Both the position numbers and the translations under genes were made by a program. From the NCBI GenBank assembly GCA_027604185.1, contig JADGKB010000085.1, forward strand, positions 1 to 62,785: a stretch of DNA of 62,785 bases, read 5' to 3'. The notes beneath the pieces were generated by a model. It did no database searches, had not been told where the DNA came from, and worked only from the letters and a program-made list of their open reading frames with translations. The DNA is from Boothiomyces macroporosus. Lineage: Eukaryota; Chytridiomycota; Chytridiomycetes; Rhizophydiales; Terramycetaceae. Shown here one piece after another: positions 4,677-61,915 of this stretch (position 1 is its first letter; each line of letters starts with the position of its first letter).

Positions 4677-6172
4677 CTAAATTAATATTGAGTTACCAAT
4701 TTCGTTACGCTGCAGCAGAGATATAATGTATAATTCTATTTCCTTTAGTTTATCCATTGCATATTGCCATTGGTTTGGTTTCAATTGTTTGATATTGGAG
4801 ACAAAACAGAATGCTTTTAGTGGACAGTGCAAGAAAACAGTGAAAATCGAACTTGGATGGTCTTGTTAGATAAAAAGTACCTTTGGTTACTGGCATCTCT
4901 GGTGGGGATAATATACATAAGAACGGTTGATCAAAGGCAGCTCTAAAGTTTTTAAATGCCATGCTGTTGTCTGAATCTACAATGACAAACATGGGCTTTC
5001 TGGTGAATGAGATTAGATCATGCGGAAAGAATGTGTTGATGGTATCATGGTTTGATTTTCCAGATGGAAGTGATGCCATACTGATACCACTTGGCTGTTT
5101 AGATTGTGATCCTTCACCAGACAAATACAACAACAAGGCAGACTGATCGCTAGTCATATCTTTTTGGCAAGTGGCAAGTTTTAACGTTAAGAGATCAATA
5201 GTTGGTCTGAATAAGAGGTGTTTTTCAGGATTTCTGTTAATGTTGGTTGGTTCACTAGTCTCCAGAGATCCAGATTGAGATTGTAACTCTGGCATCTGTG
5301 AATCGCTGAATTCAGGGTCAAATTCAAGCGATTGTAGTAGCCCGTACATGTCGAGAGTTAAACCAGAAAATTTAGCCTATGTTTATCAACTACTTACGTG
5401 ATGCTCATAGTTTCCAACTACAACAATCTGTTCAAGTTTAATCTGTGGGTTAAGAGGTGTTTTGTAGGAATAGCGCAAATGAGAAGTAATTGGAAGCAAC
5501 TGTCCTTCATAATAAACATCGTAAAGTTGCTGAGCAGATATAAAACTGCTGATTTCATTGTAAAGCAATCTCCATTCAATAGCGTCCTTTTCTTCCAAAA
5601 AGAATTCATACTTTTTAATGTAGTCTTGGAATTCAAGCGACAGTTGGTGAACCAATTGGAACTTGTTGAGTAACAGACAAACAACAATGTAGCGGATATG
5701 GTAGCGCAACTTTTTAATGATCAGCGCACTTGATTTTGCTTCCAATACCTTTTCAAAATATTTGCGTTTCTGAATTGCAGAGTAAAAAGTGAAGCTTTCT
5801 TGCAGGTAAGAAGTATCAGAAGTTCTGAGATAGTAATAGTAATATAATTGTCCGATTTTCGACGCTAATTCTCCCAATTCCCATCTTTTCAGTCCATAAT
5901 ACTGTTCATTCTCCAAGACTTTTCGGTGCACTTGCTGGAATTTCCACAGTCTAGAGTAAACTTCAAAAGTAGATTGAAATAACGGTTTCCAATTCTTGCC
6001 GGTGTTTGTTGGCTCTCGAAGAGTGATAAACAGTCGGTGAGATTTTTCTAGCAGGTATTTAAATTCTGAATTAAAATTCAATGGTACCTTGAACTATTTT
6101 TTCAGGAGTGTTATCCGTAGGATACATTTCGAATGCTTCTAAGCGAATAGGGCCAGATACTGTATCATCCAT
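4677..6172 (-). CDS. SCAI: SCAI-like protein, copy A (4 exons, 3 tiny introns)
   Basis: Joining four exons over introns at 6066-6087 (22 nt), 5377-5397 (21 nt) and 4862-4880 (19 nt) gives one 477-residue frame from MDDTVSGPIR to the stop at 4677. Diagnostic segments are FKYLLEKSHRLFITLRE, a WELGELASKIGQLYYYYYLR helix, KKLRYHIRYIVVCLLLNK, RKPMFVIVDSDNS and FTVFLHCPLKAFCF. These match SCAI, in animals a nuclear repressor acting with MRTF/SRF and in DNA-break repair; its fungal role is not established. The 21-nt intron has an in-frame stop, so read-through would truncate the protein. Copy B at 18511-20169 shares all three intron positions and has three more. The start is fixed by agreement of the N-termini (MDDTVSGP) in both copies. 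Confidence 0.88.
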
Positions 6173-7655
6173 CGTATGAGGTTTTTTCAGAAAGAAAAGA
6201 AATTCACCTGAGGAAATGTGACCTGTTCGGCGTTCTTTGCTCTGAAAAGCATGACTAACAAAGCCGAAATATTTTCAATGAAAGAAAACTAAATAAAATT
6301 ATCCGGATTTAGATTTAGCTTTATTCGCTTTATTTGCTCTATTATCATTAGGTTTGAGCCGCCACCACTGATTGAAACAATGAGTTCTCTTTGATTCTGA
6401 AAATTCGTTTCAAAAGTTGGTTGGTCATGCTCCCCGCTCGTGTAACCACAAGAAATTTAGCCTAAAGATGTGGGGATAAGAATTGTTTTAAATTAAAACC
6501 CGCTTATCAATACTACAGGCACTTATTGCCAAATTATAGGTACAGCGAGGTTTAGTAATGGTACAAATCATTTTTTGCAACTGATCTTTATCTTTAACAG
6601 TCAGATGATTAAGTAAATTCTGTATTCGATTGACGCACAGTTATTTCCAAATCCACTCGCAGGAATCACTCTTTAAACCTGATGACCAATATTAGCCTAT
6701 AAAATACCAAAGATTGGTTGACGAGTGGTTTGATCTGGTCCATTCTTTGAGCACGCGAAGGGCTTGTCTCTGTTAATGTGACAACCCTTGGGTGAATCAA
6801 AAAGTTGAATTGTTACTCGCTCTATAGGGATTGCAATTCTATTAAAGAGTGAATCAACTCATCGAAAATGCTGTTACATCAACAGCAATTATTTGACTAT
6901 CCCAAATAATCTGGATTGTAAGCTATAATGGAGCCAATTAACAATACTATTAACTGATAACCAACAAGCTATTATTCTTCTTTGATGAAAAAATTATTAG
7001 TTACTATTAACCAGTAACAAACAGAGTGTAGCAAAGTTGTTTCCTGTTAATAAATAGGGAAAACCCAGAGCAAGCCTCATTCAGTTTCAAATCGCATATC
7101 TACATTAAATCGAAATTACCTATCACTTATGACAATATAATCTGTGGGCTCTAATCGTTTAGCACAAACTAGCCGATTAAAGGTGATATTTCTATCTTTG
7201 CGTCCGAGGACTTTGCCCCAAGTAAAAGAGAATGAATCTCGCATGTACACTTGGAAGCGATTCTCTGGTCTACAAAAGTAGAGATGTTTTCAAAGAATTT
7301 TTTTTCTTCAAGCGTGTTTGAGTCCCTCAGCCACACGATAAAGCATTCTTTCGTTTAAATCAGTGGTCTGCCATTAATTGTTGGATACTCAACTTGCGTC
7401 TGGCAGTAACAAGTGTTTATGGGTCCTTTTAATTTCCAAGCAATGCCAACGCAAAAGCCGACGCTATTGCATAGAAGAAACCATCGCCATCACTCCTGGA
7501 TAGTCTATAGTGGTGTGCGGCGTTATTTGGCCCAGAAAGAGACACGTTAATGTCTCAGAACTTAATGCATTTCCGTCGGCAATCAAAGTGGCGCAGCGAG
7601 AAAGTGCTGGAAGAAATTTGCTATACTTAAACTCTCGCCTTTCCTCCAATTCCAA
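6173..7655. other. 1.5-kb intergenic region without recognised gene
   Basis: It lies between the divergent starts of SCAI copy A and the first MGST3 gene, so it carries both promoters. A 72-codon minus-strand frame at 7464-7682 overlaps the MGST3 start and has no family likeness. No tRNA, tandem repeat or transposon was seen by eye. A gene fragmented by several 20-nt introns could be missed here. Confidence 0.4.
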
Positions 7656-8093
7656 ATGATCTTGCAATTGGTCCCAGAACACGGATACGTCATTCTAGTA
7701 TTAATCGGAACCGTATTTACTTTGCTCTATTTAGGAGCTAAAGTAGGTGGAGCTAGAAGAAAAGCAAACGTAGCTTATCCAAACATGTATGCAACAGCCG
7801 AAGAAGCCGAAAAGGACAAGATGAAGCACTTATTCAACTGTGCACAAAGAGCTCACCAAAACACTCTGGAAAATATTCCTGGATTCTTGATTTTGTTGTT
7901 GGTTTCTGCAATTGAATATCCAGTGATTTCTGCTATTTCCGGAGCTGTGTACTTGGCTAGTAGAGTTGCCTATGCAGGTGGATACTGTACTGGGGATCCA
8001 AAAAAGAGAAGAAGAGGATTCTTTGGTTACTTTGCCTTGTTGGCCATGTTGGGTGCATCTGGTGCAACCGCATTCAAACTATTAACTCAATAA
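7656..8093 (+). CDS. MGST3: Microsomal glutathione S-transferase 3-like (MAPEG), copy 1
   Basis: This intronless 145-residue integral membrane protein has four hydrophobic helices. Family marks are the ARRKANVAYPNMYA segment, FNCAQRAHQNTLENIPGFL (the MAPEG signature with the RxHxNxxE glutathione-site motif) and GDPKKRRRG before the last helix. MGST3-type enzymes conjugate or peroxidise lipid substrates with glutathione in ER or outer mitochondrial membranes. AATAAA overlaps the stop (caataaac). It is followed by a decayed copy (8256-8490) and an intact paralogue (8580-9017) in the same direction, a local tandem duplication. Confidence 0.93.
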   Translation: MILQLVPEHGYVILVLIGTVFTLLYLGAKVGGARRKANVAYPNMYATAEEAEKDKMKHLFNCAQRAHQNTLENIPGFLILLLVSAIEYPVISAISGAVYLASRVAYAGGYCTGDPKKRRRGFFGYFALLAMLGASGATAFKLLTQ

Positions 8094-8255
8094 ACTGTAA
8101 TAATTGACCATTTGTAGTAGCGGCAGCGCTCTGAACTAATTTGGTGAAAATGGAATTTTAAAGAGCAGATATTAGACATTTCTTTGAGAAAGGTAATGTC
8201 ATCCACAGTAGTATTCTTTCCAGCAACATAATTCTTTATACTAAAATAGTCTTAA

Positions 8256-8490
8256 ATTCGCTAGTGGTGCATATCCAATCATGTATGCGAGCGCAGAACG
8301 TACAAAAAGCAAATCTTCAATTGCGTACAAAGAGCTCATCAAAATACTCTTGAACTTGTACCTTTTGAATCTCTCTGGGATCGAATATCCCATTGTCTGG
8401 AGTACTTTAGCTGGCAGATTAGCTTTTGCAAATGGATACGCAATTGGTGATCCAGCAAAATGAAACAGAGAATCATTTGGCATTTTGTGA
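8256..8490 (+). pseudogene. Decayed MGST3-like copy
   Basis: Pieces of the MAPEG sequence occur in order but in different frames. YPIMYASAE is followed, one frame over, by IFNCVQRAHQNTLELVPF, then back to GIEYPIV and LAFANGYAIGDPAK before a stop. The N-terminal helix and the last helix are missing. The strong match of IFNCVQRAHQNTLE to the downstream copy shows recent descent from the same family, broken by small deletions. No GT-AG interval of about 20 nt repairs the frame in an obvious way. Confidence 0.8.
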
Positions 8491-8579
8491 ATGCTCGCTT
8501 GCTCCTTCGCGATTAAGTCTCCATTACGTTGAAACGTGACTTTAAATCCGACTGAAACCCGAAAGTAATTTCTTCCAAA

Positions 8580-9017
8580 ATGATTCTCACTCTCAACAAA
8601 AACCATGGATATGTAATGCTAACTCTTATTGGTACCGAATTCACCCTATTCTACCTCGGAATCCAAGTATCCAAAGCACGTACGCTTGCTGGGGTTCCTT
8701 ATCCACTCATGTATGCAACTGCTCAAGAAGCAGATCAAGACAGGAAGAAGCATATCTTCAATTGTGTGCAACGAGGACATCAAAATACTCTTGAGCACAT
8801 TCCAGGGTTTTTGATTTTGTTGGGATTATCGGCAATTGAATATCCAGTTGTATCTGCTGTCTCTGGTGCAGTTTACCTAGCTAGTAGAATTGTTTATGCA
8901 AAGTGCTATGCTACTGGAGATCCGAAAAAGAGGGCTAGAGGTGCATTCGGATACTTTGCTCTCTTGGCCATGTTGGGGTGTGCTGGTGCAACTACTTTCA
9001 AGTTATTGACTGAATAA
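8580..9017 (+). CDS. MGST3: Microsomal glutathione S-transferase 3-like (MAPEG), copy 2
   Basis: It has the same length (145 residues) and architecture as copy 1, with the signature FNCVQRGHQNTLEHIPGFL and GDPKKRARG before the last helix. The expected activity is the same membrane glutathione transferase/peroxidase. It has no introns. The stop codon overlaps AATAAA (gaataaaac). Divergence from copy 1 is spread through the gene, more in the first 40 residues, which suggests an older duplication than the pseudogene between them. Confidence 0.93.
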   Translation: MILTLNKNHGYVMLTLIGTEFTLFYLGIQVSKARTLAGVPYPLMYATAQEADQDRKKHIFNCVQRGHQNTLEHIPGFLILLGLSAIEYPVVSAVSGAVYLASRIVYAKCYATGDPKKRARGAFGYFALLAMLGCAGATTFKLLTE

Positions 9018-15423: not shown

Positions 15424-18237
15424 ATGGTCAAAGTTTATCAGAGATATAAGCTACAAAAATCATTTGGAGTAATTGCAAGTTCTTCTTCAAACGCCGTATT
15501 TAATCATGACGGAACTTCTTGCTACGCACCATCCTTGGAAAGCGTTACATTGTGGAATTTAAAGCAAGGAACAGTTATTAAACAACTGCAGGATGGTAAT
15601 TCGCAAACGACTTGCATTGCGAGGTACAAGGACCTACTAGCGGTTGGGTAGATTTTATCTAATGTAGTTTTGCGGATGGTTCCATTCGAATTTGGGATAA
15701 TGGGGTAGTTACAGTATTTAATGGACATCGTGCGCCGGTAACATGCTTGGCTTTTGATTCTAAAGGTGCACGGTTAGCATCTGGGTCTGCAGATACAGAT
15801 GTCATTTTGTGGGACGTGGTTGCTGAAATTGGGTTGAACAGATTTAAAGGACACAAAGACCAGGTGACATGTCTGGCATTTATTGAAGGTACTTTATGTC
15901 TAAAAAGACCAAATTCCTAATTCTACAAATAATTTAAATCACTTGATTTCTGGATCAAAAGACACTCTTGTAAAAGTTTGGGATATTACTGCAGAGTGCT
16001 GTGTGGAAAATATTGTATCTCATAGAGGAGAAGTCTGGGCCTTGGCTGTGCAAGGATCCATGCTTCTCACTGGGGCTGGGGATGGCCAGTTAAGACTATG
16101 GGAAATCAACTTTGAAAACCTCGCAAAGAAGCTTATTGATAATGCCCAACAAGAATCTGCTGAAATTGAAAAATCAATAGAGCTTGTCGGAAATATTGAA
16201 AAGCAAAGTAAAGAAAGAGTAATGTCCATTAAATTCCACTCTGATGAATTCTTTGGAGTACAAGGAAACGATAAATTAATAGAAATCTTCAAGATTAGAA
16301 ATGAACAAGAGTTGAAAAAGCGGCTAGCTAGAAAGAAGAAGAGAGCAAAGGATGATATGGAGGTAGAATTGGAGCTGTCTGACAAAATTTCCGTTTTCAA
16401 CACGATAAAGACTTTTTCCAAAATCAGATCTTTTGATTTGGCAAAAGGGGCAAACAAAAACCAACTAAGAGTATTGGCGCATCATTCCAGTAATATTTTG
16501 GAGCTTTACCAGTTGGACCTGGACGAAAAAGAACCAGCAAAGCTAATTTCGTCAATAGATCTGCCAGGACATAGAACTGATATCCGCACTCTATGTCTGT
16601 CTGAGGATGATGAGTTGCTGGCATCTGGCAGCAGTGATATGATCAAAGTATGGTCTACGAAAAACGGGAACTGTATTCAAACACTCGAATCTGGCTACGC
16701 ATTATGCAGTGCATTTTTACCTGGTGGAAAACACTTGATTGTTGGAACAAAGCAAGGTGAACTGCTCCTATATGAGTTGTCGTCATCATCATTAATTGAA
16801 ACCATCCAAGGTAAATATATACTAAATTAGCTCATGACGGACCTATTTGGGGAATGCAGATACTTCCAGACAAACAAGGAATGGTTACAGGAAGTCAAGA
16901 CAAAACTGTAAAGTTTTTCAAGTTTGGATTGATTGAAGACGAAAATTACTCTAAAATTGCAAAAAGAGCGACTGCGGTGCATTACAGAACCTTAAAACTT
17001 ACAGATGATGTACTAAGTGTCCGCGTTTCTCCTGATGGCAAGTTATTGGCAGTTGCCTTGCTGGATTTAACTGTAAAAGTGTTCTACATTGATTCCCTAA
17101 AGTTCTTTTTATCTCTTTACGGACATAAATTGCCAGTCAATTCTATGGATATTTCCAGTGATTCTCGTATTATTATCACAGCGTCTTCTGACAAGACTGT
17201 AAAAATCTGGGGTTTGGACTTTGGTGATTGTCACAAAAGCATTCTTGCACACCAGGATAGTGTAATGCAATGTCAATTCGTATGGGGAACGTACTACTTC
17301 TTTACAGCCTCCAAGGATAAAACAATTAAATACTGGGATGCGGAAAAGGTATTTTTACTTTAATCTAGTTTGACGAAATTAGCAAGCTTGAAGGGCACTT
17401 TGGAGATATTTGGGCACTAGCAGTTGGAAAATACGGTAATTTCGTTGCCTCAGCCTCCCATGATAAATCAATCCGAATTTGGGAGAAAACAGATGATCAA
17501 TTTGTACTTGAAGAAGAACGAGAAGCTAGGCTTGAGCAACTTTACAATGATTTGGATGTCCAGGATGAAAAATACACCCAAGAAATCGGTTCTGGGGTTG
17601 AAGGCTATGAAGAAAAGGAAAGCAAACAACTGGAACCAGCGACTAAATCTACAATGGAAAGTTTAAAGTCTGGTGAATTGCTCTCCGAAGCACTTGTTAT
17701 ATGGCAAAAAGAAAACGAAGACTTTGAAAAATATCAACAGGTTACTTTATATTAACAAAGATGGTAAAGTCAAATCCAGACGCCGCTAAACCTGCAAGAC
17801 ATCCAATTGTCATTTCAAGTGGGCTAAAAGACAAATCACCAGAAGAATACATTCTACATGTCGTGAATTCAATCAGACCTTCTCACCTGAACGACGCCCT
17901 ATTAACTCTTCCGTTCCACCAAGTCATTACGTTACTAGAATGTCTAGCGAAGCTAATCGAAAAGCAACTAGACCCAATGCAGACGCAAAAGATTCTAATA
18001 TTCTTATTGAAGCAGCACCATAATGAAATTACTAGCACCAGATCGTTGAAGCCTGTTGTTGAACGTATCCAAACATTATCGAGAAAACAGTTAAAGAACG
18101 AACGGGATGTTATTGGGTACAACGTGTATTCGTTGGGTATCTTGCTGAGAGAAAAGAAACAAGGAAAAGAGAGTTACTTTGGAGAGCCGGTAGCTGAAGA
18201 ACGTGGCGAGAAACGCAAACGTATCGTAGTAAAATAA
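15424..18237 (+). CDS. WDR3: WDR3/Utp12, SSU processome WD40 protein (6 exons)
   Basis: Six exons joined over introns at 15648-15667 (20 nt), 15889-15907 (19), 16811-16830 (20), 17349-17368 (20) and 17741-17760 (20) give 904 residues, the usual length of WDR3/Utp12. Two WD40 propellers are visible (for example SGSKDTLVKVWDI, ASGSSDMIKVW, TASSDKTVKIWG, ASASHDKSIRIW), with a charged insert around RKKKRAKDD. The C-terminal Utp12 domain includes IRPSHLNDALLTLPF. The protein is part of the nucleolar UTP-B complex for 18S pre-rRNA processing. Every junction restores a conserved segment, such as VG-FADGSIRIW over the first intron, which makes the intron calls firm. The stop overlaps AATAAA. Confidence 0.95.
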
Positions 18238-18510: not shown

Positions 18511-20169
18511 CTAAGTTAGTAATTTCTTGCCTAGAGTCTGATCTTGTTCAATCAAGTCAGAAATAAATTGTTCAATTTGCTCAATCTTTGTAATACTAGT
18601 TTCCCAAACCTCCTTTTGGATTTGGGTTAAATCACTAATAAAAGCAAATGCTTTTACGGGACAGTGCAGGAATAGAGAAAACAAGCTCCCGATTTGAGTA
18701 GTGTCTATATGAGAGGGTATATACCTTTAATTGAAGTTGGGTATTCAACTGGGGACATTAAACAAACAAATGGTTGGTTGAACACCTTGTTAAACTCTTT
18801 AAACGCGGTACTGTTGTTTGAGTCCACAATCAAAAACATTGGTTTTCGAGTAAATGGTATTAAATCTTGTGGGTGGAACGTATGAATCAAAGCACTTTGG
18901 TCAGCATCAATCTTTTCAGGGGCTTTTCTGGTGTAATTAACCGCTGTAGCAATTCCTCCGACATATTCTGTATTAGTTAAATGTACCATTAGGACTTCCT
19001 TCCTTTACTTGTCTCTTTGAACCATCTGCACTAATATAGATTAATAGACAGTTGTTTTCTGTGATATCCTTGAAACAAGTGGCCACGTACAGAGCAAGTT
19101 GAGCAAACGTTGGTCGATAAAGCAAGTGTTTACGTGGATTTGATCTTTTTGATTTTGCATCCTCTTCAGGTTCTTTTTCAATAGAAGTCATTCCAACCCC
19201 AGATGTGGTTTGATCTGCAGGTGGAGCCTGTTGAGGAACTGGCTTGGTGAAACCTCCTGATAACGAAGGCTCTCTTTCTAGAGACTGAAGCATACGATAC
19301 ATGTCCAAAGTCAATTCAGAAAATTTAATCTTGAATTAGGTAATATTACTTGGTTTTGATAGTTTCCAACTAGAATAGCTTCCTGCAACTTTAATCTTTG
19401 GGTATTGTCATTTTTGGCGTATTCATACTTTAATCTTCCAATGCAAGTTAACGGGTTTCCTTCCATATCTACTGGAGCAAGCTTCTTTTCAGCTTCCAAA
19501 AATGTAGAAATTTCAGACAATACGACATTCCATTCTGCATAATCGCTCGGTTTAAATTGTGCATTATAATCTTCCACATACTGCGCTAGTTGTTCCATCA
19601 GCTTTTTGATCATTGCGCTCTTGTTCAATAGCAAACAAACAACAATGAATCTGGCATAGTAACGCAATTTCTTTACCATCAGCGCAGGGCTAGGTTAATG
19701 AATGCTCACTTTTTGGTTTCAAGAACGTCTTTGAAATAGTTTCGGTCTCTTATTGCTTCGTAAAAAACGTAACTTTCATTCAAGTAATTTGTTTCGCTGG
19801 TGCGAAGGTAGTAGTGATAATATAACTGGCCGATTTTCGAAGCCAACTCTCCAATTTCCCATCTTTTCAAATCATAGTATTCCTTGTTTTCCAGTACTTG
19901 TCTACATTAACTTTAGGGACCTGTTGTGCTGCTGAAACTTCCATAAGCGAGTATACACTTCAAATGTACGTTGAAAATGCGGTTGCCAGTTTCTTCCAGT
20001 GGGAGATAATTCCCTCAGCCCTACAAAAAGCTGGTGACTCTTTTCACTTAGATAGCGAAATTCTAGGTTATGCTGGTGCTGTACCTTCAACGATTTTCGC
20101 CGGAGTGTTGGCTTGATGTACTGTTTCTGGGTGTTCGTTTCTAGCTGGTCCTGAAACGGTGTCGTCCAT
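18511..20169 (-). CDS. SCAI: SCAI-like protein, copy B (7 exons, 6 tiny introns)
   Basis: Introns at 20063-20084 (22 nt), 19902-19920 (19), 19690-19709 (20), 19330-19349 (20), 18968-18986 (19) and 18705-18724 (20) join into a 512-residue frame from MDDTVSGPAR. It aligns throughout with copy A: FRYLSEKSHQLFVGLREL, KRWEIGELASKIGQLYYHYYLR, KKLRYYARFIVVCLLLNK, RKPMFLIVDSNNS and GSLFSLFLHCPVKAF. Three introns are at the same places as in copy A and three are found only here. It has an extra linker rich in charged residues after the DMYRMLQSLE segment. The duplicates are 12 kb apart in the same orientation. SCAI function in this lineage is unknown. Confidence 0.9.
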
Positions 20170-21276: not shown

Positions 21277-22114
21277 ATGCTTAACCGTTCTTATTTTGTC
21301 TTGTTCTGCGGTGGATTCTCATTATCTTTGGTTTTAAAACAATTGGCACTGGTACTCTCGATTCCTTCGCAGCGAAGATTTGGCTACCTGTTGCTTGTTT
21401 GGTCTGGATACATTATCATTCAATTAGTGTATACTTGGAGTACATTGCAAGGAAATACTTTATCTGGAATTACTTTGGCAGTCTCTACCTCTACTTTGTT
21501 TTACAGTGCTTGTGTTACCTGGTTGTTGTACATCTCGATGCAGCGGTAGCAAAAACTAACCTAGATACTTGGCAATCAATCATGAGGCAAAGTACAAATT
21601 GGTTATCCGTCGTGGAACAATAGCCCTAATGTTAACTATTTTTGTCATTCGGTTTGTTCGAACAATTTTGATTTACATTCAAAACTCTGGTTCTGCTGTC
21701 TTTCCTGCTGCGGCTACTATGCAAGTGATCACAATCTTTCCTATATTTATTTTGAGAATGCTATTTGATATGGCCTCATTGTTAAAGTTATTCCAGCACT
21801 TTAATAGTCTCACTCAGCAAAATAGCGCCAAACTAATTGCATTCTACCAATTGCGCTATTATCTTGTAGTAGAATTGATTCTGACATTGTTTTCTATTGT
21901 AGTTGCTGTACTCGAATCTCTCAACTATTCTGGTAATAATGTAGCGGATATGGATTGGATCATGATTTCATGGGCGATTAGTGCTTTGTTGGAACAATCT
22001 CAAATCCTATCTAAATTGTTTGCTGAAGGTAGCAGTGTGAGTGGCAATAAAGTCACTTCTACGCCAAAGAGAGCTATTGAAAAGACTGGAAATACAAGTG
22101 CCTCGGATTTATAA
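21277..22114 (+). CDS. Seven-helix membrane protein, tandem copy 1 (2 exons)
   Basis: A 19-nt intron at 21546-21564 (gtagcaaaaactaacctag) joins two exons into 272 residues; without it the frame stops just after YISMQR. There are seven hydrophobic segments, including VLFCGGFSLSLVLKQLALVL, GYLLLVWSGYIIIQLVYTW, STSTLFYSACVTWLLYISMQ, LMLTIFVIRFVRTILIYI and ELILTLFSIVVAVLES, and a short cytosolic Ser/Thr tail. The N-terminus enters the membrane at once, with no ectodomain. The topology is GPCR-like but I recognise no named family. The next gene is a close duplicate with the same intron. Confidence 0.8.
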
Positions 22115-22697: not shown

Positions 22698-23532
22698 ATG
22701 CTCAACCGCAATTACTTTGTCTTGTTCTCTGGAGGCTTCTCCCTTTGCATGATATTGAAACAATTGGGTCTTGTGATTGCCATGCCTTCGCAACGGCGCC
22801 TTGGATATCTGTTGTTGGTATGGTCAACATATCTCATGATCCAGCTGGTTAATACCTGGAGCTCGTTGCAAGTACGACCTCTCACTGGAATCACTTGGGC
22901 CGTCTCGACTTCGACTTTGTTTTACAGTGGATGTGTTACTTGGCTTTTGTACATCTCCATGCAGAGGTATTTCGTCCTAACAAAGATATTTGGCAATCAA
23001 TCACCAAAACTCTTTTGCTTTATACGTAAGGTGGGGTACAATCGGGTTGATGATTGTCGTTTTCATTATCCGCTTTATTCGTACTATTTTGGTTTACATC
23101 CAAAACTCGGGATCTTCTGTTTTCCCAGCAGCAGCAGTTATGCAAGTAATCACCATCTTTCCTATTTTCGTAATACGAATGATTTTCGACATTGCTTCGT
23201 TGGTAAAGCTGTTTCAACATTTTAGCAGTGTAACAAACCAGCCTGCAAACAAATTGGTTGCATTCTACCAACTAGGCTATTCGCTCGTTGTAGAAGTAAT
23301 TTTGACATTCTTTTCGATTGTAGTTGCCGTCTTGGAGTCTCAAAATTATACTGGTGATGATGTCGCTGATATGGACTGGATAATGATCTCATGGGCTATC
23401 GGGGCTTTATTGGAGCAATCTCAAATCTTGACTAAACTGTTCCACGATGATGGCAAAGTCAGCGGTACTAAAACCAATACTGCAAAAAAGACTATTGAAA
23501 ACACTGGCAAAGCCAGCTCTACAGATCTCTAG
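22698..23532 (+). CDS. Seven-helix membrane protein, tandem copy 2 (2 exons)
   Basis: A 19-nt intron at 22967-22985 (gtatttcgtcctaacaaag) lies at exactly the position used in copy 1, after the YISMQR segment, giving 271 residues. The protein is very similar to copy 1 throughout, with the most conserved parts being IQNSGSxVFPAA, MQVITIFPIF and DVADMDWIMISWAIGALLEQ. The tail again ends in a Ser/Thr-rich stretch. The intron sequences of the two copies have diverged more than the exons while the length stayed at 19. Function is unknown; a paired sensory or transport role is only inference from topology. Confidence 0.8.
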
Positions 23533-28146: not shown

Positions 28147-31100
28147 TTATTGAATTGTTGGCCAAGTAACAACATTTCCAGCCAAGTTTACCCACTGTGC
28201 CAATGCACAAGGCTTGCCATTATCAACTACCCATAGATGGTAATAGGCAGGCTGTGCGACTTCAGCGCTGATTGGAGATTGAACGGTAATAGTGTAGCTG
28301 TTTCCGTTGTTTGCAATAGAGACCACGTTCAAGACATAGTGGGAGTTGCCCATGTGGTTGTTATGAGTGACTAGAGTTAATCAATAGTTACTGAATCCAG
28401 GGTTAATCAAGCTAACAGTTACTCCACTGGTATTTCCAGATGGGATAGTGGCGGTAATAGTGTACGCAGTGTTGTAGTTCCAAGTTGAGGCTTGGACAGA
28501 TAGGATTTGTGGTGCAGCTGCACCGTTCAACAAGTATGGCGGAGAGAATGCCTCAATCTTCTTTTCGTTGATGTGCACAGTCAAAGTTGGATCATCCATT
28601 GAATCTTGGTTTGGTGTAGACCCAATAACCAATACACGCCCATCAAGCATCAGCATTGCTTCAGAGTGATACAATCGAGCGACAGAAGTTGCATTCAAGA
28701 CGGTGAATCTGCTTCCAGCTGGTGCAGAAGGAGTGTAAAGAACAGGATTCAAGGCAGCAGCTTTACCTAACCCAAATCCAGCTTTGCCAAGAGTAGCGCC
28801 GTTAATGTACAAGACGGTTTGGTCGGGAAGAGCAACCAAGTCTCCTAAAACTCTAGGAATAGGCATGGTTTCCATTTGCCATACAGCGTTAGCACCCAGA
28901 GAAGGAGTGGTAGTAACACACGTATCCAATCCAGTAGTACCATCTGATCCACCACAAATCATGATTTGCATTGGGGGATTTTGGTTGTTCTTGTCAGCAA
29001 CAAGCGGCAACATGACTGAAGAGCCCGAGTATGGATAAGACCTTCCTTCAGTGTTTGGACCTTTGAATGGAATATTCGGTAAAGAATCACGGGGAGCAAA
29101 TGTTTTTGGGTCAAACAGCTGCGATTGATAATCCGCCAGCAAGAAGATTGAGGAAGAAGCTTGGTTGGCGTCAGCAGGAATGTAGTAAACGAATGGATAC
29201 AGGTTGGCGCCCTTGGTGTTTACCAAAAGCTGGACAGTAATGATTGGGTCGTTGTTGAAGTTTGGTAAAATTTCAACGGTTGGCTCATTAGTGCCAGCAG
29301 TTGCATCAGGAGATCCGCCGACAGCCCATGCTTGGCCATTTGGTAGCAGTAATGCAGAAGGATCTATAATTAGCACTAACCTTACACCAACGAGGCTTTT
29401 GCAGTTGCATAACAGACACATCCTGTCTCCAGTCACCGTGAGGGGAAATGAAACGGATGCCTCTCAAAGAAGGACCACCGGTCCATCCACCAATGTTTAA
29501 TACAGAACCATCTGATAGCATGACGCCGCCGCTGCAGAAAATATCAGTGTATGGATGCTTTGGTGTGAAAGCCAAGGTAACTGGGTTGAATGAGTAGGAG
29601 TGATATACGCTCCACCAGCCATAAGCAATTCTTTCCAGCAACAAAACTTCGTTTGTTGTAGGAATTGGGGCAATGCCCAGCGGAGTGACCGGTCCAGTGG
29701 TCAATAGATCATACTGTCCAGGGTTTGCAACAGTAACAGGAGTAGTTACGCCGGGATCGCTTCCAGGGGTACCGAACCAGACATTGCTGGTGCTAATGTA
29801 GCAGTTGATTGCAAATACACCATTTGGTGGCTGATCCCAACAGCATCCAGCACTATAACACTGTTCATAAGTAGTGGTGTTTCCGGGACAGACACTTCTC
29901 TGATCCGGAAGGAATGGCTTTGCAGGACACGCAGCCGGCTGTTGCAGCGTGTTTGGAGTATAAACAACTTGGTTTGGAGAGCTCCACAACACGTTTCCAG
30001 TATTGTCAGCCCATTGAAGAGAGCCGTTTTCTTGTAAGGTCAGTGTGTAGCTTGCAGCAGGAACAGCTGGTGCAGGGTTTGAGGTCCACAAAGCTCTTGG
30101 CGGGACACCGGGATCAGCTCTATAAATAACAATTTGTCCGTTAGTTTGTGCAGCTAAATAACAGGTGTGTCCAGCTCCCTGCCAAGTGTTTTGGGCGTAA
30201 ACACTTGTGTATGGGTTAGTACTGTACAATACAAACTTGCAGTCTGCTTGCATGAACGCTTTGAATTGGAAGGACGGAGAAGCCAAGAAACAGCCGCCTG
30301 ATTTGCAGTCGTTGTTTAACGTGGTTCCACTTTGCATGGTGGTAACAAAATATACAGACGGATTGGTAATGTTGTAGAGACTGCTTGGCGCAACAGTCGG
30401 AACAGTTGAAGGGGCAGCACTAATAGTGGCAGTTGGGACTGCAGTAGCAGTTTGAACAACAATAGGCAAGGCAGACCACACAGGGTTGCCTTTGCTATCA
30501 GCCCAAATAAGGTTCCCATCGTTTCCAAGAGTCAAGGTATAGGTATCAGTCTTTGCCGGAGTATTTGGGTTCAGCACGAGCAAACTGGTAGATGCGCCAT
30601 TAACGGTTTCGTAAACGGCTAACTGTCCGTTGGTTTGTGCAGCCAAAAAGCATGTTGGTTGCCCGCCTTGATAAGTGTTGGTCTTGTACAGTTGAGTTTT
30701 AATATCCGAAGTATAGATGGCGAAAATACAATCGTGCTGCATTATAGCCAAGTACTTTCCACTTGGCGATTGAATTCCACATCCAAAGGAGTTGCAGTCC
30801 CCGTTCAAAGTGCTTCCAGCATTCATGACAGAGTTGTACTGAGCTGAAGGAGAAGTGAGAGTGTATAATGGTGGAACTGGCGTGACAGACCACACTATGT
30901 TTCCTGTGTTATCGCTCCATACCAGGTTTCCGTCATCTTGCATGTTTAAAGAATAGGAAGCAGCTGGTGTGGCAGGTGCTTTGTTGAAAGCATAAACCAC
31001 AGCTGGGGTCCCAGTGGCATTTTGATAGACAATCAGCTGTCCGTTTGCTTGTGGAGCCAAGAAACACTTGTGTCCGTCACCAAGATACGAAGGCGCCTTG

Positions 31101-33947: not shown

Positions 33948-35203
33948 ATGTTGAGAGCAATCAAGACCACGGCAAGATTCACTAAAAATGTAAGATATCA
34001 CTCTGGAATTGGATTCAACCTTACCACCGATCAAAAAGACTTGCAAGAAGTAGCTCGCAAATTCACTCAAGAATACATTACTCCGAACGCTGCACATCAC
34101 GATCGTACTGGTGAATACCCGGTTGAAATTTTGAAAAAGGCATGGGAAGCTGGATTGTTGAATGGACATGTTCCTGAAAAATACGGTGGTCTTGGTTTAG
34201 GTGTCTTGGATTGCGCTATCATTGGTGAAGAATTAGCCTATGGTTGTACTGGTATCCAAACCGCAGCTGAAGCAAACGGGCTAGCTGAAGCTCCTGTTAT
34301 TCTTGCTGGTAATGATCAACAAAAAAAAAAGTATTTGGGAAGAATGACTGAAGAACCATTGATGTGTGCCTACTGTGTAACTGAACCTGGTGCTGGATCA
34401 GACGTTGCTGGAGCAAAAACCAAAGCTGTAAAGAAGGGTGACAAGTATATTATCAATGGAAGCAAAATGTGGATTACCAACGGAGGTAAAGCTAATTGGT
34501 ACTTTGTTTTGGCAAAGACCGACGACACCCAAAGTGCTGGAAGAGCGTTCACTGGGTTCATTGTTGATGCAAACAGTCCTGGTATCACTGTCGGAAAGAA
34601 GGAAATCAACATGGGACAAAGATGCTCTGATACCAGAGGAATCACTTTTGAAAATGTTGAAGTACCTGTTGAAAACGTTTTGGGTAAAGAAGGACAAGGT
34701 TTCAAGATCGCCATGGTAATTACATTTAATTTAGGGGGCTTTCGACATCACTCGTCCATTGGTCGCTTCCGCGGCAACGGGTTTGGCAAGACGTGCTCTT
34801 GAAGAAGCCACTAAATACTCTTTAGAAAGAAAGACTATGGGTAAAGTCATTTCAGAACATCAAGCGATTGCCTTCATGTTGGCAGATATGGCTATTGGAG
34901 TTGAAGCTGCCAGACTACTTGTCTGGAAATCCGCAGCTATTAGAGATTCCGGAGAAAGCAACACCTACTATGCTTCCATGGCAAAGGCATTCGCTGGTGA
35001 AATTGCAAACAAGAATGCTGCAGATGCTGTACAAATCTTTGGAGGAAACGGATTCAACTCTGAATATCCAGTTGAAAAATTAATGAGAGGTAATTATTTC
35101 TAACGTAGATGCCAAGATTTTCATGATTTACGAAGGCACCTCACAAATTCAAAGAATGATTATTTCACGTCTATTATTAGACAAGACCAAGGCAGGATTG
35201 TAA
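33948..35203 (+). CDS. ACADM: Mitochondrial acyl-CoA dehydrogenase, medium-chain type (3 exons)
   Basis: Two 19-nt introns (34716-34734, gtaattacatttaatttag; 35090-35108, gtaattatttctaacgtag) give 405 residues. The N-terminus [19 protein letters not shown] is a good mitochondrial presequence. [13 protein letters not shown] and KMWITNGG are the two acyl-CoA dehydrogenase signatures, [19 protein letters not shown] is conserved, and [10 protein letters not shown] holds the catalytic Glu of the medium-chain branch. It performs the first, FAD-dependent step of beta-oxidation. Both introns restore invariant sequence ([13 protein letters not shown] and [13 protein letters not shown]). The stop overlaps AATAAA. 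It separates copies 3 and 4 of the SPRY array. Confidence 0.96.
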
Positions 35204-42874: not shown

Positions 42875-42966
42875 GGTAAAGTTCAAGCTGAGCCGTCGAA
42901 CCTGAGACACAGAAATTATTAAGGCTGTACTTGAAAATCATATGCACAATAAATTGGCTGTGCTGT

Positions 42967-47291: not shown

Positions 47292-47941
47292 GTTTGGCCC
47301 TTGTAATGGGTATATCTAAATGGAAGGTTTCCTTTCATGTACCAAAGAAAAATACCGAGCAGATGATTTTGCAAAAATTAAAGAGATGTAGCTGATGTGG
47401 ATTTACTGTAGCGGTTGATATTTACTGTAGGGGTGTTGGTTTACGAAATTACAGTAAAACGCAGAGTACAAATACTAAACAAATGTTCGGAAATGATAAA
47501 TGCAGACTGAACTCTCAACTCCATTGAAAAGGCTGCGGATAATATCACTCAACTATCAACTGTGGTTATGCAAATCAATGACAATGATCACTCTGACAAC
47601 TACGGTATAAAAATGGTATTGAAGTTGAATGAAGAGCACACTCAAAATACCAAACAATTATCGGATTTATTCGCCAGGATCGCCATCCACTCTGACGATA
47701 TTGTCAGCAGTGGACAATGATAATTTCCAATGGAATTTCTTCAAAAATGGGTTAGCTTTACAAAACCACTTGGGCGATAGTTTCTTGTATGAATAAATAT
47801 TAGTTTTTACCTCAAGTATTTGGCTTCCTTTCAATAATACGTGAAAAACAAGCTAGTATTAATCCACCAATTCCAATCAAATCACTTAAAAACATTGCCG
47901 AAAATCATTTATTCTCAATTATATTCACAGATTGTAGATAA
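47292..47941. other. 650-bp spacer with TTTACTGTA motifs and a possible small gene
   Basis: Three copies of a 9-10 bp motif (atttactgta twice direct, ttacagtaaa once inverted) lie at 47401-47458, about 110-170 bp before the start of Sel1 gene 4. Further right, 47504-47719 on the plus strand reads as an amphipathic helical peptide (SIEKAADNITQLSTVVMQI...) without an ATG at its start, and another frame follows to a stop with overlapping AATAAA near 47793. It may be a small gene whose tiny introns I could not place. Confidence 0.35.
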
Positions 47942-50050: not shown

Positions 50051-50069
50051 AATTTTTTTCAAAAAAGTT

Positions 50070-52332: not shown

Positions 52333-55300
52333 TTATAAATTTTTATTTGAAGGAAACTTAAAGTTGGCAAAGGCTGCTAGGCACTTGTCTCTGGAAGCTT
52401 CGTCTTTGAACCGAATAGTAATTCCGACCTCCTTTTGAGTTTGATGGCCAACTGTCTCGCCTTTCTTTTCCTCTTGAATAAGACTGTAAATCATAAACTT
52501 GCCCTGATCACGTTCAGTTTCAGGTTCATCAATCTTTTCTGCGCTCTTTATATTGAATGAGGTCATGATTGCCTGGTCTTTTCTGAATTTACGAATAAAC
52601 GCCAACTTTGATCCTGGGAATATGTATATTGAAGCTATTTCCCAGACTGAGAGGCCTTTGCCTGATATTTTAACGTATACATTGATCAATTGGATACCAT
52701 CCACAGTGATTACCACTTGGTCCAAGGCAGTTGCGGTTTCATCTTCAGCGATAAATACGGTTGGAGCTCTTTGTGGTACTACAGCGGGTCCATTTTGACT
52801 TTCCATTGCTGATGCTGCAACTTTGGATGTCCTTGAACTTTTAGAACCACCTGTTTTTGAGCTTCCTCCTTTAGATCCGCTTTCTTGATTCTCAATGAAT
52901 TGACGGTAGAGTATCTTTCCGGTAGTAATGACTGAAATATAGATTGTAAAGATGTTCAACAACAGACCTTGTACAAAATCAACTGCAAACTTGTCATCAA
53001 TAAATCCTTGGAGTAAGATGATAAGAACAAACAATGCTAGAGCTTGATAAATGGATTTCAAAGTGCCGTCAAAGTCAATAAATGCAGGAGCAGTGTCTTT
53101 AAGAGAGTAGCAAAGATAAAGTGAGACAAAGGCTATCAGGATAAGATATACAGACAACACTGACTCGAAAATAGAGTCGTAGCTACCTGTGCCTCCAGCA
53201 CTAAAACAGCCAATATAGTGCGATCCAGAATTCATTTGTACAAGAACCGCAGTGGGTGCTGCTACCTGAGACCAAACAATAAAAACAACCGCTGGCAATA
53301 CTAGAGCGACGCCAATAATCATGTACAGAATATACTGCGGAGTGACTTTACCAATTTGGAAACTGTTTACGAAAAAGATTTCATACAGCCTGTAGTGCTT
53401 GATTAATCCTGCAGCGACAATCAATGTTAAAGCCTCCACTAAAAGGATGGGTTTGATCATACAGATTGTATTGTTTGCAACCAATGGAAGGAACGCCGTA
53501 TAAATGTGTAAAATAATGTATCCTAGAACAATCAAACTGGTAAGGAACACATCAGACGATCGAATGATCTTTCCGTTTCTGTACAATATCAATACAGCTA
53601 GAACCGTAAATTGGAATACAATCCCAATTGCAACAGTTGCAGAGATTCCTACCCCATAAGGATTGGATAGGGATGTACAGGTAGAGTTCATGCTGGGAAC
53701 TAGAGAAATTGTTCCAGAGGGGCAAGCAGCGCAAGTATTTGACGTTGGATTCAAGTATTGCGCAGGTGGACAGTAGATATCAATAGATATTGCTGTATTT
53801 TGGGATGTGTACAAACCGTTGGAAACAGAGTACGAGAACTTGTTGGCTCCATAGCCAGCCTGTGGAACTAGAGGTTGGAAAACTACCGTTGTCGACTTAT
53901 ACCCTCTTGCAAAATACACTCGTGACCCATTTACCAATTGGTTTCCACTAGTATCATAAAGGTTGCCGGACAAAGAGTTGAAAGAAGTCAAATCTAGGAT
54001 GGCGTAAAGGGTTGGATCAAACATGTTACTCGCGCCATACAATGTAATTGTAATATTTGCCTGAGAAGAGTAAGTGATGGCGGTTTGATTAGTATGATAT
54101 CCCCCAACTGGAGCTGAAGAAACTAATATTTGCGGGTTAGAGGCCTTTAATACAGATTGCTGCCCTGGTACGACGTAACAAGGAACATCTGGGTACTTGT
54201 ACGCTATGCAGTCATTACCAGCCGTGGTTTCACAGAAAGGTGGTGCGTTAGGGACACATGCGCTGAATTGAATATCATTGTGGAAAGGACCAGAGTCTGG
54301 AGTTACTACAATGGTATCATTTCCTTCTCCTTTAACTGTATATATCGTATCAAAGTTGTAGTAAGTAACCAAATTTGCTTCTTGGCTAGCATCTTTGATA
54401 GCTCTGCTCATGCTGTTTCGGATTTGAGTTTGACTGATCGACGTGTTGTAAATCCTAAACTCATCCATAAAGCCCTTGAATGCATGCATTCCTTCACCCC
54501 AGAATGGCCAGTGACACAACCACAATCCATTGATATTGTTAAAGTTTGTTTGATATCCTCCGAAAGCTGGAACCGACACTACCAAATCACCGTCAATGTA
54601 AAGCTTCAATGTAGACAAGTCATCCACCATCGCAACATGGTACCAGACTCCGTATTTTGCAAATGCATCAATGGTAAAGCTTCCGTTATTTGATAATTGA
54701 TCCCAGTTGGAGTAGCCAATTAACTAGGTTAGAAAGGAATTACAGTAGATGCTTGTCCATTTGGAACCCAGATAGAGTATCTTCCGTTGCAGAAAAAGCT
54801 ATTGGCAAAGTTCAAGTTGCTGTTCAATCCCCGACACCAAGAATTTTGAAATGAAACTTCTTGATTGCCCAAAGAATAGATTACACCTTCGACGCTGTTT
54901 GACAGGTGATAAATCCACGCAGAAACTGTATAAGGACCAGTTATTCCTACTTTGGCAGCATTCCATTTCGGAGCAAACAAGTAATCGTAATTGCCATCGC
55001 AAAACAGCATGTTTCCAGCTGGTCCAGGAGAGGCTTTCGCCACGAACGCTGCCTCTATTTGGAAAGAGCCAGAGCTGACACCTGCAACGCCTTGAACGCT
55101 AAAGGTGCCTTGAAAATAGTCTTTCTTTGAAATACCAGTCGCAGTTGTTTCAACGCTCAGCGGTAAACATAATGGCACTACAGAGCCCACTACAACTTGA
55201 GTATTTCCATTCCATAAAGTAACACCAGGTATGGTTTGGTCTAGAGTTAGAATTGTGCCAGTTTGAGTATTGTCAATGTTTTCTTTGGCACATGTTTGCC

Positions 55301-56615: not shown

Positions 56616-57684
56616 CTAATTTATTGTCGGTGCCTCGGTTCTCCTGTATGCTCTCAACTTGGCACTTCTACTCCGTTTGTTGTTTTCGATTTCTTCTTGA
56701 CTAGGAACAACTAGGTTAATAATACTTACCAACGCGTTTAGTTAGTTTTTCAAAGCTTCCCTTATTATTTGCCATTGGCTCTCTGTAATACTCCTCTTCT
56801 TCTTTTAGTCTGTTTACCTGTCTCCTTATTCTATAGTAACCTTTTGATTTGCTGTAATCATCCATCGTCATTGGTTTGCTATTTATGCAGTTTAAAAAGA
56901 ACCTTTTAACAAGCCTGTCTTCCAACTGGTGGAAGGACACTATGGTAACCACACCACCAGGTTTAAGCAGCTTTTCAGTAGCCAACAAAGAGTTTTGCAG
57001 CTGGTTTAGTTCATCATTGATGTATATTCGAAGTGCTTGAAAAGTCTTTGTTGCTGGGTGACTTCCTTTCCAATATCTCCCTTTAACGTCCATTACTAAA
57101 TCAGCAAGTTCAGTCGTTGATTCAATCATTTTGGTTTCCCTATGCTTGATAATCCTCGAAGCAATTTTCTTTCCCAATCGCTCTTCTCCATACCGTGTAA
57201 ATATTTCTGATAGTTTATCATGCGAGTAATTGTTTATGATTGCTTCTGCAGTAATACTGCTGTCTATAGCTGGATCAAACGAATTGGTTATGGAAATATC
57301 GTTGGGTGAGTAATTATGCATTCGCATATCCAACGGCCCTGTTCTCCAATGCGAAAACCCACGGATAGGATCATCCAATTGGTTAGAAGATACTCCAATA
57401 TCATACAATATTCCATCAACTTTATGTTGAACATGTTTGAGTAAATCTCCAAAATGGCCATGAACTGGAATCAATCGTTCATTGTACTTTAGTTTCAGTT
57501 CCATCATTCGTTTGATTGCCAAAGGGTCTTTATCTATCGCAATGACTTTACAATCAAAATTATCCAGCAATGCAGAAGTGTAGCCGCCTTGGCCGAATGT
57601 GCAATCAACAAACACTTGGTTTTTAGTTTTGTTTAGGAATGAGAGCGATTCTGAAAGTAGGACTGGGATATGTTTGATATTCAT
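56616..57684 (-). CDS. METTL15: RsmH/METTL15-type rRNA cytosine-N4 methyltransferase (2 exons)
   Basis: A 19-nt intron at 56711-56729 (gtaagtattattaacctag) adds a second exon that completes the conserved C-terminus (VVPSQEEIENNKRSRSAKLR). Total 349 residues. HIPVLLSESL at the N-terminus, DCTFGQGGYTSALL (SAM-binding loop), DGILYDIGVSSNQLDDPIRGFS and PLDMRMH are typical of MraW/RsmH. In eukaryotes the homologue METTL15 methylates mitochondrial small-subunit rRNA. No strong presequence is visible. AATAAA follows the stop closely. It shares a promoter region with no close neighbour; VMA10 lies upstream on the same strand. Confidence 0.94.
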
Positions 57685-57959: not shown

Positions 57960-58390
57960 TTAAGCTGCTTTTTTGATATTTGCATGAACCTGAATTAAAT
58001 CCATTTACTTGAGGCTTGCAGTCGCCAATAGTCTTTAACAACAAATCAACTACTTTTTCCTTATTAGCTTCAAAATCCTTTGTAATCTGTGCAATCTGTT
58101 TTTGTGTTTCGATTTCGGCGGTTTTTACATTCTCGCCAACATCCCCAGCAAACTCGTTAACAAAATCTTACTTTCTTTTCATATTCAATAAACTCTTGGT
58201 TCTTTACTTTCTTTAAATCTTCAATTTCCTTTTGCGCTTCTTGTCTGGCATCTTTTAATCTTTGAACACGATCTACATTAATATTGGTTACCTATTGTCA
58301 ATAGGAATTACATGATTTTGCTTTTGCTACTATTTTGGAGGCTTCTTTTTCTGCTTCCAAGAGTGTTTGGATTCCTTGGTTTGATGCCAT
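57960..58390 (-). CDS. VMA10: V-type ATPase subunit G (4 exons)
   Basis: Four exons give 117 residues, the normal length of subunit G: MASNQGIQTLLEAEKEASKI, then coiled-coil RVQRLKDARQEAQKEIEDLK, FAGDVGENVKTAEIETQKQI and LLLKTIGDCKPQVHANIKKA. The N-terminal IQxLLEAEKEA motif is diagnostic. The subunit belongs to the peripheral stalk of the proton pump. Introns are at 58273-58311 (39 nt), 58153-58171 (19, gtaagattttgttaacgag) and 57990-58008 (19, gtaaatggatttaattcag). The 39-nt one splits exactly into two complete GT-AG introns, 58292-58311 (20 nt) and 58273-58291 (19 nt), with no exon base between them. The stop overlaps AATAAA. The longest unspliced frame is far below usual ORF limits, so it is easy to miss. 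Confidence 0.93.
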
Positions 58391-60631: not shown

Positions 60632-61112
60632 TTTGGAAATACGTAATATTTCAATCTATTTATAGCTGGAAGACCGTTTGTACTAATAGTACAATGGCTT
60701 AGAGTAGGTTACACAATATTACGAGGATATATTAAAGTTGGCTGTCTAAAAGGCTTTCAATATTAGAAAAAGATCACGCTGTAGGACAAGGCGTCTTATT
60801 GACTTGTTACGTTAGGCGTATGCCAAGAATGGACGAAAAAATCAGTAATCTGGCGACAATAGTATTCCTGCCATATAGCGGTCAGCGCCACATTTCCTGT
60901 TATTAATTTCCTATTGAATAGACTGTCTCAATAACTCCAAAAGAGATCAAACAATATCGCAAGCTGCTCAATGGAAAATAACAGTTATTTCTGACTCTTG
61001 GTGCATGAGAAGATGGATGAGAATGCAATCTTTGTACTAGTCACAAAAGCCAACCTACCACATGGCATTTGGTGGTACAATCAATAATTTTTTCAGTTGA
61101 ATTCTTTTCAGT
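60632..61112. promoter_or_regulatory. Divergent spacer
   Basis: Contains the TATA element of the Cys-rich precursor (60657-60664). The rest is AT-rich without recognised features and includes the promoter of the thioredoxin-fold gene. Confidence 0.4.
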
Positions 61113-61915
61113 ATGACAGTTGAATCATTCGATCGTTCCATTTTTGATAGTCTTCCAATTTCAGGTGATGCTTCAAAATTAAAAGCATCTCTTCTGGTAA
61201 TCACCACAGAACCAGCAACTCTCGTAAACCTTTCATTATCGGACAATACTGGCATTATTGTTGTTGGTGCCAAACCAGAAGGCTTTGTTTCTACCCCAGA
61301 ACTACCTGGTTTTGATGTTCCATTGTTAGTTGTTAACGCAGAAGACAAGATAATATACAATGGGAATGTTCAGGATGGCATCGATAGTATCAAAATGAAT
61401 GACCAAATTTATGCCAAGATCAAATTTGCACGTCGTGGGTGGCAATCACCAGTTCTAAAAACCAAATTCGATTATTCTTTGGTAACAGATTTGGTATACA
61501 TGAGCGATATCAAACTCGACAGAACCGCTACTTTACCACGCATTCTGTATATTGAAAGTAGGTTATTATTTACTTAGGATGGTTCAAAAGTTGTTCACCT
61601 TGCATCGAAATGTGGCCCAAACTTTGCCAATTACAAGATGAATGGGGATCCAAGGCTGTTGTGCTCACCATATCCAGAGATATTCCCAAGAAGGACGATT
61701 TCAGTGATATTTTAGAGTCTTTGCAGGGGATTGATCATGGCAGGGTGATGAAAGCTGTTGATTTAGATGGAAAGTTTGAAAAATTCCAGCAACAAAGTGA
61801 GTTTATGGGTTACCCTTCTTGTTTCATAGTTATTGATGGAGTAATTGAGTATGTTGGAGTTTCCAAGCCAAAAAGTTTTGAACTTGTAAGAGAAGCAATC
61901 AAGCTGCTCGAATAA
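61113..61915 (+). CDS. Thioredoxin-fold protein with CSPC motif (2 exons)
   Basis: A 20-nt intron at 61558-61577 (gtaggttattatttacttag) joins two exons into 260 residues. The junction restores LYIERWFKSCSPCIEMWPKL, the active-site region of a redoxin/thioredoxin (Cys154 and Cys157), at the start of a complete thioredoxin domain ending in GYPSCFIVIDGVIEYVG (cis-Pro loop). The first 140 residues look like a second, degenerate thioredoxin-like module without a CxxC pair (ASLLVITTEPATL, VPLLVVNAEDKIIYNG). Probably a thiol-disulfide oxidoreductase; compartment unclear as no signal is evident. The stop overlaps AATAAA. Confidence 0.78.

Follow-up and report, generated by a model that had tools for sequence, protein, structure and literature searches.

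Apparent spliceosomal introns of 19-22 nt, some of them in back-to-back arrays, in the nuclear genome of the chytrid Boothiomyces macroporosus

The window, i.e., the whole stretch of DNA analyzed here, is contig C85 (62,785 bases) of the assembly of the chytrid Boothiomyces macroporosus (Terramycetaceae, Rhizophydiales), which comprises 15.2 Mb in 216 contigs. In 11 of its genes, among them those encoding WDR3/UTP12, ACADM, METTL15/MraW, VMA10, a glyoxal oxidase and two SCAI paralogues, 29 intron units were placed, all of which are 19-22 nucleotides (nt) long (twelve of 19 nt, twelve of 20 nt, two of 21 nt and three of 22 nt), the borders being GT-AG in 28 cases and GC-AG in one (Table 1). This count takes a 39-nt case in VMA10 as 20+19 nt and includes the intron at 4677-4696, which falls beyond the interval covered by an earlier note on this DNA, the VMA10 intron with a GAG acceptor and the GC-AG intron of SCAI gene B. 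That note had counted 27 introns in 11 genes, 26 of them of 19-22 nt, and had taken the 39-nt exception for two joined introns; the short lengths are confirmed, and the exception consists of two complete introns back to back. Introns of this size are among the shortest known. Work on the minimum size of spliceosomal introns, and on what sets it, has drawn on ciliates, relic nuclei and reduced parasites. In the present case this limit is approached by an intron-rich chytrid with apparently conventional splicing factors and a branch motif accessible to mutation, and the puzzle is how such small pieces are removed by an apparently ordinary splicing machine.

Exact removal of the segments restores conserved proteins, the evidence being mainly that of the reading frame at three of the 29 junctions (4677, 18968 and 61558). 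The alignment of the five-intron WDR3 to Utp12 (5oql) spans residues 1-897, and that to WDR3 (7mq8) falls into two parts; the second intron of the gene sits at a variable loop. The spliced VMA10 protein is ungapped against 3j9t across both the 39-nt array and the intron ending in GAG, and the residues at the two ACADM junctions correspond to those of chytrid proteins (the best named matches among at least 7,996 candidates include Gorgonomyces, 86%; Globomyces, 83%; Kappamyces, 82%). Pfam matches continue across the introns of METTL15, the glyoxal oxidase and a laminin-G protein. SCAI genes A and B have most intron positions in common in the paralogue alignment, and removal of the GC-AG segment from SCAI B yields a tail alignable with SCAI A. 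At 18968-18986 the stretch is absent from paralogue A, so that support comes mainly from the frame, and at 61558-61577 no Pfam match was obtained at 1e-5, which leaves the frame as sole evidence. Three longer joins were rejected. One spans 47 nt (50241-50287); another, of 76 nt in VMA10, resolves into a 19-nt intron, and for the third, of 55 nt in SCAI B, the paralogue alignment favors an intron of 19 nt. Two paralogous membrane proteins carry an intron at the identical position, where the proteins align without a gap and the intron sequences differ. The latter observation speaks against the segments being developmentally removed DNA, ribosome-bypassed stretches or assembly insertions instead of introns, as do the GT-AG borders, the branch motif, the AG|G-leaning exon flanks and the presence of a splicing machinery; ciliates do eliminate short DNA elements, yet we regard this explanation as scarcely credible.

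Intron lengths and anatomy were studied in a sample made up of the window and twenty 10-kb stretches, one per contig of C1-C20, which amounts to 262,785 bases or 1.7% of the assembly. The gene model applied was motif-blind and relied on codon usage only, with flat intron lengths of 10-200 nt and no splice motif. It gave 276 GT-AG joins, 96 of which are of 19-22 nt (19 nt, 26; 20 nt, 39; 21 nt, 20; 22 nt, 11), compared with 9 joins of this size for the control pair GC-AG, 7 for GA-AG, 13 for CT-AC, 12 for TG-GA, 7 for GT-TG and 14 for AT-AC. Outside 19-22 nt, no GT-AG bin rises above the control range (101-200 nt: 95 vs. 92-128). With lengths extended to 500 nt, 81 GT-AG joins of 19-22 nt were obtained vs. 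7, 6, 8, and 8 in four control pairs, and no bin between 23 and 500 nt showed a GT-AG excess over the control range (201-500 nt: 108 vs. 97-121). A scan for joined frames gave 120 GT-AG joins at 18-22 nt in the sample vs. 22-64 in nine control pairs and, less tellingly, 34 joins at 18-23 nt vs. 14-28 in nine controls in the window alone. Training of the model with the intron penalty left unraised led to over-calling (2,207 to 2,911 introns), and that pass was discarded. As far as the sequence goes, the observation of 19-22 nt introns is confirmed, and for coding joins up to 500 nt the sample appears to show what marks ultrashort-intron genomes, a single narrow mode of lengths under 25 nt and no class of longer introns. 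The earlier note's claim of ultrashort introns in a fungal nuclear genome is borne out by the GT-AG-specific peak.

Intron anatomy was measured on the 96 motif-blind calls of 19-22 nt. At the donor, 88% of the calls have A in position +3 and 61% in position +4, the signal being weak further in; the final three bases are TAG (67), AAG (13), CAG (13), or GAG (3), and the exon flanks lean to AG|G. A TRAY branch motif, able to pair with the GUAGUA of U2 snRNA, places its A at a distance of 5 nt (39 calls) or 6 nt (24) from the last G, i.e., in 63 of the 96 calls, where the earlier note had located the branch A; as it had also stated, there is no room for a polypyrimidine tract, and none is present in the 19-22 nt introns. 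TRAY at 3-9 nt before the end was found in 74 of the 96 calls vs. 40 of 163 longer calls. The first G and the branch A are 13 or 14 nt apart in 65 of the 74 TRAY-bearing calls. The branch distance is 5 in 19 of the 26 introns of 19 nt (4 in four), 5 (18) or 6 (13) in those of 20 nt, mostly 6 (nine) in those of 21 nt and scattered in those of 22 nt, and we infer that two short rulers, donor-branch and branch-acceptor, fit these data. Mechanistically, the donor GTA(A) would be read by U1 and then by U6, U2 would pair with the TRAY motif and the first AG just beyond the branch point would be used as acceptor; by this usage the two short distances would serve as rulers, with U2AF65 having no tract to bind. 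It is very probable that U2-type spliceosomal introns have shrunk to 19-22 nt throughout the B. macroporosus nuclear genome.

The earlier note had proposed a search for the genes of U2AF65, U2AF35, SF1 and the snRNAs and had predicted an altered spliceosome. SF1, U2AF65, U2AF35, Slu7 and Prp18 are all encoded in the assembly. The spliced U2AF65 scores 342.8 bits (cut-off 310.3), its C-terminal domain matches solved U2AF65 and the RNP motifs of its RRM2 are intact; SF1 retains SF1-HH, KH and zinc knuckle, and U2AF35 is represented by a partial model in L040 with 180.6 bits to the solved U2AF 23 kDa subunit. U2 snRNA has two copies, both with intact GUAGUA, and U6 retains ACAGAGA (62.2 bits), the pairing elements of U2 and U6 being kept. 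The sole U6 gene found (L031 1501-1606, minus strand) differs from the family consensus by an additional base between GGC and CCCUG. A U1 candidate, which starts AUACUUACCUG and has an intact 5' end, scores 68.8 bits, just below the cut-off of 69.5. In contrast to the intact parts, RNP1 of U2AF65 RRM1 reads KEHCHVEF and has lost both aromatics, which are kept in 118 of the 119 other homologues listed (best 120 of 1,415), the exception being the metagenome protein P0124; this loss is the one candidate change of the machinery. The prediction of an altered spliceosome is thus weakly supported. A spliceosome reorganized in response to change or loss of U2AF or SF1, in line with the earlier note, would fit the RNP1 loss and is improbable given that U2AF65, U2AF35 and SF1 are all encoded with the intact domains listed above. 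Loss of Slu7 and Prp18, predicted by analogy with Stentor, was rejected as both are present. RED_N gave no match, yet the control was equally silent. SPF45/RBM17 was described as a substitute of U2AF (PMC8363638).

Furthermore, six arrays of two to four complete introns, 16 units in all, were found (Table 1). In each, an AG is directly followed by a predicted donor, the arrangement of a zero-length exon. A genome-wide tandem pattern, built to include the VMA10 array of the window, has five matches in the assembly (one being the array it was built on) vs. none for the reversed pattern. In five of the six arrays (L035, L036, L037, L016 and L038) a long frame is open solely upon removal of the whole array. 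Unit-like sequence occurs after the 143 introns called in a motif-aided pass once at offset 0 and twice at offsets 1-59, the numbers before them being 0 and 2. Tandem duplication as origin of the arrays was rejected: the inner six bases agree at 1.87 of 6 positions in 15 within-array pairs vs. 1.98 in random intron pairs, so that there is no sign of recent duplication. The arrays are most likely removed unit by unit, each removal bringing the next donor beside the exon, and they make stepwise splicing directly testable. A further-reaching reading, held tentatively and with a little less than even confidence, is that the spliceosome of this lineage removes only pieces of about 20 nt, their size being dictated by the two fixed distances on either side of the branch point, therefore any longer intron would survive solely as a chain of complete 20-nt units with zero-length exons that are excised serially, with length quantized at about 20 nt and the pyrimidine grip of U2AF65 RRM1 lost.

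Several points weigh against these interpretations. The support comes from DNA sequence, and serial removal of the arrays is a proposal. TRAY is absent at 3-9 nt in 22 of the 96 motif-blind calls, and the gene model undercounts stop-free 21-nt introns. In the motif-aided pass, in which motifs were trained from 19-22 nt seeds and lengths afterwards left flat, 143 of 214 calls are of 19-22 nt (2 shorter, 6 at 23-30 nt, 18 at 31-60 nt and 45 at 61-200 nt); some real longer introns are possible among the other 71, which are read as false joins because unaided control pairs yield more such joins. Passes with a learned length prior placed 257 of 278 or 222 of 240 introns at 19-22 nt (1.1-1.3 introns per kb coding sequence) and gave three zero-length exons in the sample (VMA10 and L016) and none of 1-18 nt, and they are circular for length and for dividing 39 and 57 nt into units. 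The 71 calls could favor a normal longer class existing beside the ultrashort one and missed by the frame-based method, as could introns of untranslated regions or above 500 nt, the test having covered coding joins of up to 500 nt. Against this class, no GT-AG excess appears in any bin of 23-500 nt, 29 of 29 window introns are of 19-22 nt and those modelled in U2AF65, SF1 and Slu7 are of 19-24 nt, though under the learned prior; its existence is very unlikely.

For the arrays, the competing view takes each for one longer intron (39-82 nt) that is excised in a single step and whose inner motifs are chance or relics. Whole-array removal is all that the sequence requires, and with flat lengths the VMA10 and L016 arrays are called as single introns of 39 and 57 nt. 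In the L039 array the modelled phase needs whole removal, while another phase is open after removal of two of the three units. On the other side, donor, branch motif and acceptor are all present with normal spacing in every one of the 16 units. Ranked among 6,513 GT..AG 19-22-mers, real introns among them, the units fall within the top 0.2-4.4%, the scoring motif model having been trained on this genome itself; no excess of joins is seen at 23-60 nt, and the pattern has four matches beyond its founding one vs. none in the control. One-step removal is thus rather unlikely, and chains of separately removed introns are preferred.

In recursive splicing of Drosophila, zero-length exons, with an AG followed by a new donor, lie inside very long introns; the AG-donor adjacency is common to both systems and the units here are of about 20 nt. 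Fungal stwintrons resemble the arrays in that two introns are excised consecutively at one exon junction (PMC9024468; PMC5639578), but in stwintrons a splicing element of the external intron is split by the internal one, whereas here complete units, up to four, stand side by side. Introns of the chlorarachniophyte nucleomorph are 18-21 nt long, with a near-identical size range, a narrow distribution and high intron density (PMC10245619). The nucleomorph is a relic algal nucleus and its introns were reported to have no branch-point signature and a largely GT(A) donor (PMC2483917), in contrast to the fungal nucleus described here with a clear branch motif at near-fixed distance; the branchless signature reported for nucleomorph and Paramecium introns is thus not seen. 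The heterotrich ciliate Stentor has introns of 15-16 nt, with position 10 of 15 as the usual site of the branch A, i.e., as here 5 nt before the end, and with conserved snRNAs (PMC9505925). Unlike in B. macroporosus, where donor and branch A are 13-14 nt apart and Slu7 and Prp18 are present, Stentor is reported to have no strong branch consensus, to lack both proteins among those found and to have altered Cwc25 and Isy1 (PMC9505925). Mikrocytids, a published comparison not among the rivals of the earlier note, likewise have uniform ultrashort introns (16-17 nt), but 224 of them in a parasite with a reduced spliceosome (PMC10245619), compared with about 1 intron per kb coding sequence in the present sample. 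Among the literature matches listed, from a search that leaves most subscription journals outside, none was found to describe comparably short introns from any fungus, chytrids included, and in the parts consulted of PMC13391722, PMC5364385, PMC12316389 and PMC3629993 the intron lengths of relatives are not stated.

The public B. macroporosus protein HK103_007160 is a 97% match to the spliced WDR3 and agrees with it at three of the five introns, therefore the short introns are partly in the public record already. Compared with the spliced model, public B. macroporosus WDR3 lacks LAFIED and QGELLLYELSSSSLIETI, that of Boothiomyces sp. JEL0838 lacks YKDLLAVG and one 29-residue stretch and CIARYKDLLAVG is absent from that of Terramyces sp. 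JEL0728. In these three Terramycetaceae, every missing stretch of 3 residues or more (five in all) ends within about one residue of a modelled intron site. In Globomyces WDR3 no stretch is missing relative to the spliced model, and in Gorgonomyces two are, one from the second intron site (variable loop) and one elsewhere. As the missing stretches coincide with intron sites, the introns are probably common to the family, whose members are known here from proteins only, and sometimes mis-modelled. From public U2AF65, MFLLPCHLLKG is missing directly downstream of a 19-nt intron; in the annotation this protein is also joined to the product of an upstream gene with a ribosomal-type domain (PF17136), the two genes lying about 60 nt apart (L001 433-2551). 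This is a warning that public gene models of the family drop conserved residues at such introns (WDR3 in three strains, U2AF65 in one). Two metagenome relatives of ACADM, P0015 and P0020, stop at bases 12-14 past the second junction, like the own unspliced sequence; the stop falls where the branch TAA of a 19-20 nt intron would lie, which is suggestive only. No protein named for B. macroporosus is among the 120 matches listed for ACADM (window 33948-35203), therefore this gene may be broken in the public annotation.

Table 1. Intron units placed in the window, followed by the back-to-back arrays found in the assembly.
Gene or array	Length (nt)	Position in window	Strand	Evidence
SCAI gene A	22	6066..6087	-	gene model; paralogue alignment; Pfam SCAI
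SCAI gene A	21	5377..5397	-	gene model; paralogue alignment
SCAI gene A	19	4862..4880	-	gene model; paralogue alignment
SCAI gene A	20	4677..4696	-	open frames joined (gene model), mainly frame
WDR3/UTP12	20	15648..15667	+	ungapped vs. PDB 5oql and 7mq8
WDR3/UTP12	19	15889..15907	+	5oql/7mq8 alignment, variable-loop edge; preceding residues absent from public P0241
WDR3/UTP12	20	16811..16830	+	5oql/7mq8 alignment; preceding residues absent from public P0241
WDR3/UTP12	20	17349..17368	+	5oql/7mq8 alignment; preceding residues absent from public P0242
WDR3/UTP12	20	17741..17760	+	5oql/7mq8 alignment
SCAI gene B	22	20063..20084	-	paralogue alignment; site matches 6066-6087 of SCAI A
SCAI gene B, GTC donor	19	19902..19920	-	removal recovers 12 residues aligned to paralogue A
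SCAI gene B	20	19690..19709	-	gene model; paralogue alignment
SCAI gene B	20	19330..19349	-	gene model; paralogue alignment
SCAI gene B	19	18968..18986	-	gene model, mainly frame
SCAI gene B	20	18705..18724	-	gene model; paralogue alignment
SCAI gene B, GC-AG	20	18511..18530	-	spotted by eye; spliced tail aligns with paralogue A
Membrane protein paralogue 1	19	21546..21564	+	after coding base 269, as in paralogue 2; ungapped
Membrane protein paralogue 2	19	22967..22985	+	position as in paralogue 1; sequence differs
Glyoxal oxidase	22	29364..29385	-	within single continuous Glyoxal_oxid_N match
Glyoxal oxidase	21	28371..28391	-	within single continuous GO-like_E_set match
ACADM	19	34716..34734	+	junction residues agree with chytrid homologues
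ACADM	19	35090..35108	+	junction residues agree with chytrid homologues
Laminin-G membrane protein	20	54724..54743	-	within one Laminin_G_3 match
METTL15/MraW	19	56711..56729	-	within continuous PF01795 match, residues 2-342
VMA10, array unit 1	20	58292..58311	-	gene model; array pattern; 3j9t alignment
VMA10, array unit 2	19	58273..58291	-	spliced protein ungapped vs. subunit G 3j9t
VMA10, GAG acceptor	19	58153..58171	-	ungapped vs. 3j9t
VMA10	19	57990..58008	-	gene model; 3j9t alignment
Thioredoxin-like protein (named by eye)	20	61558..61577	+	two open frames joined
Array VMA10 (L037, window)	20+19		-	pattern match
Array L035	20+20			pattern match
Array L036, polyprenyl synthetase	20+20			pattern match; ungapped vs. 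solved synthase at array
Array L038, USP7-like	20+21+21+20 (four units by model)			pattern match; small gap vs. USP7 at array
Array L039, bromodomain protein	20+22+19			pattern match
Array L016, methyltransferase	19+19+19			found separately from the pattern, by gene model

Further features were observed in the window. The glyoxal oxidase gene is flanked by a 125-nt inverted repeat (28024-28148 and 31329-31453, 97% complementary), one arm of which has shorter direct repeats beside it, and may be part of a mobile or duplicated cassette. Membrane proteins at 23922, 26039 and 36022 (region 23922-38115) have tails that look alike by eye, and the model placed no introns in them. Several large open frames lie at 38573-50344, which presumably encode proteins resembling the Sel1-type repeat proteins. 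Two related open frames of 145 residues, with an apparent decayed copy between them, were recognized by eye at 7656-9017, and an RNase MRP RNA gene lies on the minus strand at 7058-7275 (52.4 bits, gathering threshold 50).

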